Shown: positions 6,050 through 8,638 of the stretch, piece by piece
How the letters are laid out: each line of letters starts with the position of its first letter
How positions within the stretch are numbered: position 1 is the stretch's first letter
Origin: Antedon mediterranea
Taxonomy: Eukaryota; Echinodermata; Crinoidea; Comatulida; Antedonidae
Length of the DNA stretch: 64,000 nucleotides
Assembly (NCBI RefSeq): GCF_964355755.1
Contig: NC_092680.1
Coordinates: 15,663,001-15,727,000, forward strand
Direction of reading: 5' to 3'
Translations under genes and position numbers: made by a program
Notes under the pieces: generated by a model
The model's input: only the letters and a program-made list of their open reading frames with translations
Databases searched by the model: none
Told to the model about the DNA's origin: nothing

Positions 6050-6116
6050 ATGGGGAACTGTAGAACAAAACAAAAAGAAAGGGAGTCATCTCAAGGGCCC
6101 TCCACTAATAACACAG
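6050..6116 (+). CDS. Kinase exon 1 (MGNC lipidation motif)
   Basis: Encodes the first 22 residues, basic and polar after MGNC. Donor ACACAG|GTAATC, phase 1. The ATG at 6050 is chosen because it gives a classical myristoylation start in phase with exon 2. Confidence 0.75.
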
Positions 6117-8638
6117 GTAATCATGATTGATTCCAGCCAGCTGCAACTGTTTCCTTAAACAGTTACCCAGCCAGCTACAACTGTTTCCTTACAGTTTTTT
6201 ACCCGTCAGCTGCAACTGTTTCCTTACAGCCATTACCCAGTCAGTTGCAACTGTTTTCTTAAAGTTTTACCCAGCCAGGTGAAACTGTTTCCTTAGAGTA
6301 GCTATTTCTTTCTGGCAACCTTTTAAAATGTTATTTACCGGGCCTAGAGTTGCAGACGACAAAACTCGGTCAGTATGACTGGTACCACTTTCCTTTATGT
6401 TTAGTATAGGGACTGGTCAATTATTATTTTTATGTTCAGAACAAGATGACGGGCTAGATAAACCAATTACTCAACAAATTCCAAAATGCAAGGATACATT
6501 GGAAATTCCAAGAGATTCATTACAACTGGAAAAAATCATTGGTGCTGGACCGTTTAGTGAAGTCTGGAAAGGTAAGAAATAGCGGTCTATTTTAGAGTTG
6601 ATACTTCTTTTTGCTGTGACCTGAATGTGTGACGTGCAAAGATAACAGGGCGCGTTAAGTCATTTCAAAAAGTGTCATGGAAAATCGCCATTGTGAGCCT
6701 AAACACAACACAGAGGAATTAGAAAGTACCATGGCCGCAAGTAAACATAAACTATATATACCGTATCTGTTCTGTATATATCTTATATCGTATGTCTGTT
6801 TTACAAGGCAATCCTAACTTTACTATTATTGGACATGACATCTTTTGAAAATGACAAATATATTGAAATGGTTAGAAAGATCACAGAGAAATTTCGCCAG
6901 ATTAATAGTATTTTAAAATTGTTGATCTTAGTAATATTTGAATTCCCATTATTAGTCTACCCTGGCATCTCTCTACTTTTAAAATAAGGATTAATGATTT
7001 TTGTTGATTATTTTTTTTTATTTTAGGTCGTTGGATTGAAAAGACAGTTGCTATCAAAACCTTCAAACCAGGAACTGTGTCTCCATCGGAATTTTTGGAA
7101 GAAGCAAACATTTATATGAACAAATTAAAACACGACAACCTGATGCAGTTATATGCTATATGCTCAGATAAGGTAAATTTATTTAATATACATTTCAAAT
7201 CCATTGTCAAGAAGTCGTTTGTTGCCGAATGTCGCTTACATTGAAACAAACTAAAAGCGTCACAGGATTATTTTCAGTAAGTGGTTAATAGAAGCCTAAA
7301 GTCGTACTGTATGTAGAGAGTACTATGTGTATGTTTTTAAACCACAATACTTAATACAAATACTGTACATTATCCGTTTTTCTCTTTGAATCTTAACTTG
7401 CTTGTATTCCACAGGAACCAATATATATCGTCACAGAATTAATGGCCAACGGCAGCCTGCTTGAATATCTAAAAGATGGAGACGGTCGTAATATGCAGCT
7501 TGTTGATCTTGTTGACATGTCTGTACAGGTAAAGGCCCGGTCACACCTAACCGATAACTATCGGACGTGAAATATCGGTTAGGTGTGACCGGGCCGTTAA
7601 TGTCCTTATTACAAGAGCATCTTTCTTCTGGAAACAGCAACAAAATAAAGTTGACAGTAGAAGAAGAGTAGAATCTTATTATTGGCCGGACATACGCCGA
7701 GGATGTTATTAAATCAAACAATACCATGAAAAGCCACATATATCTAATTGTTAAGTCATCTGCATATAAAACGGAAGGTTCACGCGTTCGAGTGGGGTTT
7801 TCTCATGCTCACAGCAGATTTCCTCATCTTTATCGTTTCTAAATTAAATAATTCATGTCCAGTATATTATCACCGGGCGTATTAGAGAATCGTTCTATGC
7901 CTGTTAATTTATAATTATTTTAACATGAATATATTTATTTGACAGATTGCTAATGGTATGGAATTTTTGGAGACGCATAACTATGTCCATCGTAATCTTG
8001 CAGCACGTAATATTCTGGTCGGTGAAAATCGTTTGTGTAAAGTTGCCGATGTTGGTTTGGCAAGAATGGTTGACGATGATGAGTATGTCAATAGACAAGG
8101 TGCCCATTTCCCAATCAGATGGACCGCCCCTGAGGCTTTTATGTTTGGTCGTTTCACTATCAAATCTGATGTCTGGTCTTTTGGTATTCTTCTAACTGAA
8201 TTAGTTACACATGGACGAAAGCCCTATTGGGGTATGCTACCCTTCTTTACGTTTTGTCACTTTAAATAATTTTATATTCGAAGATGTGTGCTATAACCCC
8301 GACATGCTTTCAATTGTCTATGTGTTGTGTGGGCTCTAGACCACGAGACCGTGTTATTTTTTTCAGCAGGTCATTTTTCTCCATCGATAGGGGCAACTCT
8401 TCACTTTTAAACGCATTATTTTGATTTTGTTTTTATAGAAATCTTGGGTGATGTATTAGAACAAGTAGACAGAGGATACCGAATGCAAAAGCCTTCAAAC
8501 TGTCCAGACTCCTTATTTAACTTAATGATGAACTGTTGGAATAAGGAACCACTGTTGAGGCCTACATTTGAATTCCTTCATCATTACCTGGAAGATTACG
8601 TTGTTAGAATAGAACCATCACTCAAAAGGCAATCCTGA
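6050..8638 (+). CDS. Src-like tyrosine (pseudo)kinase lacking SH3 and SH2, six exons, complete
   Basis: Exons 6050-6116, 6440-6571, 7027-7172, 7415-7528, 7946-8231 and 8439-8638 join in frame to 314 residues, all with GT-AG introns. MGNC at the start fits Gly2 myristoylation and Cys4 palmitoylation, as in Src-family kinases. A short linker (residues about 5-48) runs straight into a kinase domain, so there is no room for SH3 or SH2. The kinase domain is most like Src: GAGPFSEVW loop (57-65), VAIK Lys77, helix C Glu92, gatekeeper Thr122, activation-loop Tyr200, [27 protein letters not shown], and RPTFEFL near the end. The catalytic HRD is HRN (Asn170), DFG is DVG (Val189, Asp188 kept), and the third loop glycine is Ser62. 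Loss of the catalytic Asp predicts very weak or no phosphotransfer; ErbB3 has the same HRN change. There is no Src-type C-terminal regulatory tyrosine tail. Gene structure is very likely; inactivity is inference. Confidence 0.9.
6133..6298. repeat. Intronic tandem repeat, about 37-bp unit, about 4.5 copies
   Basis: Degenerate copies of a unit containing CAGCTGCAACTGTTTCCTTA followed by an ACCCAG-like spacer, in kinase intron 1. Each copy carries an E-box-like CAGCTG or variant. Confidence 0.75.
6440..6571 (+). CDS. Kinase exon 2 (linker and glycine-rich loop)
   Basis: Acceptor ATGTTCAG, donor AAAG|GTAAGA. Encodes residues 23-66: [19 protein letters not shown] is the usual Src-family entry into the kinase domain (W.IPR.SL.L...LG.G). 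Confidence 0.85.
7027..7172 (+). CDS. Kinase exon 3 (VAIK lysine and helix C)
   Basis: Acceptor ATTTTAG, donor AAG|GTAAAT, phase 1 to 0. Contains [20 protein letters not shown] with Lys77 and Glu92, the intact salt-bridge pair, then [14 protein letters not shown]. Confidence 0.9.
7415..7528 (+). CDS. Kinase exon 4 (hinge and gatekeeper)
   Basis: 38 codons, phase 0 both sides. [19 protein letters not shown] carries gatekeeper Thr122 and the hinge. Its splice donor is followed at once by a MITE (7533-7597). Confidence 0.9.
7533..7597. mobile_element. 65-bp fold-back MITE abutting a splice donor
   Basis: Arms AGGCCCGGTCACACCTAACC and its reverse complement with a short loop (near-perfect 23-bp core, 7534-7556 and 7573-7595). 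TAA at 7530-7532 and 7598-7600 would be the target duplication. The left TAA is part of the donor GTAAAG of kinase exon 4. Confidence 0.75.
7946..8231 (+). CDS. Kinase exon 5 (catalytic and activation loops, HRN and DVG)
   Basis: Acceptor ATTTGACAG, donor GG|GTATGC. The catalytic loop is HRNLAARN, with AAT at 7994-7996 where GAT would restore Asp. The metal-binding motif is DVG (GTT at 8051-8053 instead of TTT). Each is a single-base difference from the active consensus. Confidence 0.92.
8439..8638 (+). CDS. Kinase exon 6 (C-lobe end, stop)
   Basis: Acceptor TTTTATAG, stop TGA 8636-8638. Encodes [20 protein letters not shown] to [12 protein letters not shown], then a short basic tail (EPSLKRQS). 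The junction gives PYWEIL, a few residues shorter than the PYPGM.N.EV loop of Src. Confidence 0.88.

Follow-up and report, generated by a model that had tools for sequence, protein, structure and literature searches.

A Src-family gene of Antedon mediterranea without SH3 and SH2 domains is predicted to encode a pseudokinase

The window analysed here is a 64-kb stretch of the Antedon mediterranea genome (64,000 nt; C11:15663001-15727000), and the genome searched was the 354-Mb assembly of 18 contigs. On the plus strand, window positions 6050-8638 harbor a gene, named A, for which a hand model gave six exons comprising 314 codons and a TGA stop. Spliced alignment of the 314-residue product to the genome recovered the same exons, in agreement with the original prediction of six in-phase exons and an MGNC start. 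All introns are of the GT-AG type, 10 of the 10 splice sites fit, and a TAA is present in frame immediately 5' of the ATG. Exon 1 (6050..6116) encodes the MGNC anchor, with predicted myristoyl and palmitoyl sites, and is a truncated form of exon 1 of two related genes, B and C. It is followed by intron 1 (6117..6439; 323 bp), the site of the SH3/SH2 deletion. Exon 2 (6440..6571) contains a remnant of the SH2 C-terminus (EQDDGL), the linker, the start of the N-lobe and the glycine loop GAGPFS62; exon 3 (7027..7172) contains the VAIK Lys77, Glu92 of helix C and an inserted Tyr96. The hinge with gatekeeper Thr122 through helix E is encoded by exon 4 (7415..7528), and the catalytic loop with HRN170, DV189G, activation-loop Tyr200, the P+1 loop and helix F by exon 5 (7946..8231). 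Exon 6 (8439..8638) encodes the end of the C-lobe and a tail with Leu310 in place of the regulatory Tyr. Without splicing, the frame of exon 1 soon stops after TNNT (TNNTGNHD, then stop), and the protein therefore depends on the donor at 6116/6117.

Other features were seen in the window. On the minus strand, positions 1621-3340 hold a multi-exon gene of ordinary appearance that starts with MGSC, a possible N-myristoylation signal. Its last exon is charged, coiled-coil-like and by eye similar to a stathmin-domain protein, with no Pfam match. A possible last exon on the plus strand (641-843; acceptor, 67 codons, stop) lies between B and A and also had no Pfam match. Large 21-bp minisatellite arrays in both orientations at 14255-16723 have several open frames and give rise to spurious long ORFs. 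Exons with Methyltransf_31 and Rv2258c-like winged-helix domains are present on the minus strand at 37501-38112, 45967-46206 and 49420-49677, and they probably belong to one or more related methyltransferase genes.

The product of gene A matched the Pfam family PK_Tyr_Ser-Thr with an E value of 1.8e-85, and its best PDB matches were Fyn (365.8 bits) and Src, with Fgr, Hck, Lyn and Lck also found. The E value together with Fyn and Src as the best solved relatives excluded a chance match. The kinase domain showed 59% identity to human SRC and 51% to FRK, with the human sequences serving as alignment guides, and at 59% identity to Src the fold is clear. These comparisons indicate that gene A is a member of the Src family by descent, with a kinase closest to SRC/FYN. 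Its start, MGNCRT, shows homology to the first exon of both B and C and is of the SH4 type (MG start). Gly2 is a likely site of myristoylation and Cys4 a probable site of palmitoylation, which would provide a lipid anchor.

The residue changes on which the original prediction was based were found in the assembly: AAT at 7994-7996 encodes Asn170 (HRN in place of HRD) and GTT at 8051-8053 encodes Val189 (DVG in place of DFG). In the spliced model, Ser62 was confirmed in the glycine loop, as was the retention of Lys77, Glu92, Asp188 and Tyr200; Asn175 of the catalytic loop and the P+1 loop are also kept. The claim of intact nucleotide-binding residues was correct only in part. The Lys, the Glu and the Asp of DFG are kept, but one glycine of the loop, the Phe of DFG and the register of helix C are altered, the last by a one-residue insertion (Tyr96) between Glu92 and Met97. 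Further changes were found. Trp263, with which the kinase domain of human SRC begins, supports autoinhibition; gene A has Leu43 at this position. Leu310 occupies the position of tail Tyr530 (human SRC numbering), and the Csk site is thus missing. With Asn170 in place of the HRD Asp and with the VAIK Lys and DFG Asp retained, gene A is a predicted pseudokinase by motif, and its architecture departs from that of the family in SH3-SH2 and in the tail.

A genome search with A revealed two close relatives, both on the same chromosome. Gene C is located on the minus strand from C11:18087226 down to about 18073130, 2.4 Mb from A. It encodes MGNC, SH3, SH2 and a kinase in which HRD and DFG are intact and the tail reads YKEADY, and its sequence is that of a complete canonical Src-family kinase. 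Since this paralog is intact, the losses in A are derived and not the norm of the family. Gene B, the tandem neighbour of A on the plus strand from C11:15654266 to about 15662657, lies 6.4 kb upstream of A and ends just before the window. It also encodes MGNC, SH3, SH2 and a kinase, with HCD replacing HRD and GFL replacing DFG. Over linker and kinase, the identity was 78% between A and C, 71% between A and B and 81% between B and C. A and C share their exon phases, the MGNC exon and its 5' acceptor are homologous, and all length differences between the two genes are multiples of three. The comparison with the paralogs thus backed the view of A as a Src-family kinase with a predicted lipid anchor that lacks SH3 and SH2 and has lost the catalytic base.

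The SH2 exon of B is split by an insert of about 2.15 kb upstream of the window (C11:15656877-15659033), which ends in perfect inverted repeats of 90 bp, is accompanied by a target duplication of 10 bp (GGTTATTTCA) and lacks a convincing splice pair. The insert is a recent DNA transposon; internal copies of its ends point to nesting or rearrangement. Three more distant Src/Frk genes of the same chromosome (D, E and F) all retain HRD and DFG. The six modelled Src/Frk-type genes (A-F) are thus found on one chromosome, at C11 4.04, 15.65-15.67, 18.07-18.11 and 21.14 Mb, and this placement suggests a local duplication history of the family.

We compared the 5' regions of the three close relatives. 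From the 5' acceptor through the ATG and the initial 67 coding bases, A can be aligned with exon 1 of both paralogs. The homology stops by position 6128 and restarts at about 6416-6424, 16-24 bp 5' of exon 2. The sequence in between consists of about 290 bp of unrelated filler and includes a 34-bp minisatellite (6133-6295), which occupies half of intron 1. At the junction of exon 1, the sequence reads ACACAG/GTAATC in A, ATACAGGCAATG in C and AAACCAATAATG in B. The GT at 6117 is a usable donor in A, while C has GC within a longer exon and the site is absent in B. Exon 2 corresponds to the exon in which SH2 ends and the linker is encoded, with EQDDGL in A and QQADGL in C. Since the donor of exon 1 and the acceptor of exon 2 are both phase 1, the protein of A continues in frame.

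No SH3 or SH2 domain matches were obtained anywhere in the 64-kb window. Intron 1, with its 323 bp and half of them minisatellite, is too small to hide these domains, and an extra SH3/SH2 exon upstream of A was rejected because the window has no domain matches. When C was force-aligned to the window 5' of exon 2, only spurious pieces of low similarity resulted. We concluded from the alignments that A is a Src duplicate, with C as the parent lineage, in which a genomic deletion removed SH3, SH2 and the remainder of the unique region, and that its truncated exon 1 is now joined in frame to the former SH2-linker exon.

A rooted codon tree that included D, E and F was saturated, with a weak preference for A and B as sisters, and the selection tests were therefore run on A, B and C. 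In this codon model of only three sequences, with a dS of about 0.20 per branch, omega was estimated at 0.53 (A), 0.42 (B) and 0.10 (C). The likelihood interval for A spanned about 0.33-0.9, and omega = 1 was rejected (p=0.02), with omega averaged over the whole branch. Constraint on A is thus about five-fold weaker than on C; it is relaxed, not absent, and the p value of 0.02 versus neutrality is modest. The 287 aligned codons of A contained 0 stops and 0 frameshifts. In contrast, neutral simulation of the A branch yielded a mean of about 7 stops, with zero stops in only 0.075% of the runs (P about 0.001). Changes in A affected 10 of 96 positions that are invariant in the outgroups and 27 of 134 other positions (p=0.07), a sparing of only about two-fold, while neutrality predicts equal fractions. 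The disabling marks of a pseudogene (stops, frameshifts or splice losses) are absent from the spliced model of A, and its omega of 0.53 differs from the neutral value of 1 at a modest p value. The lack of stops, an omega below 1, length changes by whole codons and the sparing of invariant positions together argue that for most of its history A was probably a translated gene on which constraint was weak.

Our preferred reading, to which we assign a probability of roughly 0.4, is that A is a real, membrane-tethered Src-family pseudokinase that acts as a non-catalytic partner or decoy of C; the scaffold or decoy role first suggested would be plausible. The degeneration of B and the relaxed selection on A make decay a serious rival. 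It is quite possible that A is an unprocessed pseudogene of recent origin or is in its final decay, as a tandem Src duplicate that drifts after the loss of SH3/SH2 and whose ORF survived by chance or because constraint ended recently. Such decay would agree with the omega of 0.53 in A versus 0.10 in C, with the loss of several normally invariant residues, with the run of the old exon 1 frame into a stop and with the neighbouring B, which has other catalytic lesions and the transposon within its SH2 exon. It fits less well with an omega below 1 (p=0.02) and with a frame free of stops and frameshifts, as even neutral drift over half the branch (t=0.1) left zero stops in only 1.5% of the simulations. 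All ten splice sites of A are GT-AG, and the new donor is in the correct phase, for which the chance is 1 in 3.

The other alternatives concern what A makes. A membrane tyrosine kinase that is always open and retains weak activity, with HRN and DVG lowering activity without abolishing it, would be in line with the retention of Lys77, Glu92, Asn175, Asp188, the P+1 loop and Tyr200 and with the loss of all Src restraints (SH3, SH2, linker Trp and tail Tyr). HER3 provides a precedent, as it keeps trace autophosphorylation despite HRN. We consider such a kinase rather improbable, since the catalytic Asp, the DFG Phe, one glycine of the loop and the register of helix C were hit together, which argues against selection for catalysis. 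B is encoded some 6.4 kb upstream on the strand of A, and this position and the matching exon phases would allow the kinase exons of A to serve as alternative 3' exons of B, with read-through splicing to a B(SH3-SH2)-A(kinase) product. This is very improbable: A possesses its own MGNC exon with a conserved 5' acceptor, the SH2 exon of B is broken up by the transposon, for which no convincing pair of splice sites is seen, and the set of opposite-strand ORFs at 1621-3340 lies between B and A. An assembly or base-call error as the source of HRN and DVG is hardly credible, as the ORF is otherwise clean, A has many further specific changes and B shows independent losses.

On the account that we prefer, A is a duplicate of the C lineage that was cut down by genomic deletion, and a donor absent from C and B restores an in-frame anchor-linker-kinase protein. 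The change from HRD to HRN is accompanied by the loss of parts that serve autoinhibition only (linker Trp, tail Tyr, SH2 and SH3). If A is indeed a pseudokinase partner of C, the protein would be made, would transfer phosphate inefficiently and would sit beside the Src protein C at membranes. There, C might phosphorylate A on Tyr200, and the anchor and the kinase lobe could make A a non-catalytic dimer partner. A would more likely damp C by competition for C-C trans-phosphorylation or for substrates, and it would possibly activate C allosterically, like HER3 acts on EGFR. A competitor is more probable than an activator because A lacks SH2 and SH3, the usual recruiting and opening domains of Src relatives.

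The action on C would be the weakest step of the account and is argued by analogy. Pseudokinases can be allosteric activators, competitors, scaffolds or switches and commonly modulate catalytic relatives (PMC8141879). According to a review (PMC8874404), asymmetric Src dimers depend on both kinase domains and on the myristoylated N-terminus of one of the two partners, and activation-loop phosphorylation in these dimers occurs in trans; this dimer model is for mammalian Src and goes back to one primary study, as reviewed there. The same review describes that autophosphorylation of wild-type Src is reduced by an open kinase-dead mutant whose activation-loop Tyr is missing too, and that Src with this Tyr intact is not the dominant-negative form (PMC8874404). 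The Val of A at the dimerisation-pocket position SRC T459 also counts against a dimer role, although C departs from SRC there as well (Ile). It is unlikely that A is a lineage-conserved, expressed Src pseudokinase of anchor and kinase fold that serves as a natural, dedicated decoy or activator of Src dimers and that arose through gene duplication, deletion of exons and a new splice donor. What is known of the non-catalytic roles of Src in dimerisation, competition and scaffolding comes mainly from engineered mutants, and A, if the reading is true, would be an evolved test of which parts of Src suffice for them. The locus may also record a route from enzyme to pseudoenzyme in which a duplicate was stripped of its autoinhibitory module and of catalysis, and the copy beside it has been damaged independently. 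In holozoan tyrosine kinases, SH3-SH2-kinase is a unit conserved since ancient times (PMC8662651), and the literature that we searched, with incomplete coverage, contained no Src-family pseudokinase gene.

A has the MGNC exon and the structure and phases of the kinase exons in common with C, in addition to the 78% identity, but C possesses SH3, SH2, linker Trp, HRD, DFG, tail Tyr and a low omega, which A does not. With B, it shares the MGNC start, the loss of catalytic motifs and relaxed selection; B differs in the retained SH3-SH2 coding, in HCD/GFL instead of HRN/DVG and in the transposon with terminal inverted repeats. The HER3/ErbB3 pseudokinase carries HRN. Like A, it thus has Asn in place of the HRD Asp and keeps, or largely keeps, the Lys, the Glu and the DFG Asp; unlike A, it is a receptor, comes from a different tyrosine kinase family and retains the DFG Phe. 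HER3 is a pseudokinase that activates a catalytic relative (PMC8141879). Experimental kinase-dead Src mutants that interfere with Src dimers resemble A in combining the anchor with a dead kinase domain in an open form without the tail Tyr, but they are laboratory-made and keep SH3-SH2, and the dominant-negative mutant lacks the activation-loop Tyr that A keeps (PMC8874404). The natural truncated, kinase-dead isoforms tr-KIT and i21-VEGFR-1 activate Src (PMC3980740). Like A, these are natural truncated dead tyrosine kinases, and they work through Src kinases (PMC3980740); however, they are receptor isoforms without the ATP-binding lobe, whereas A is a separate gene of the Src family.
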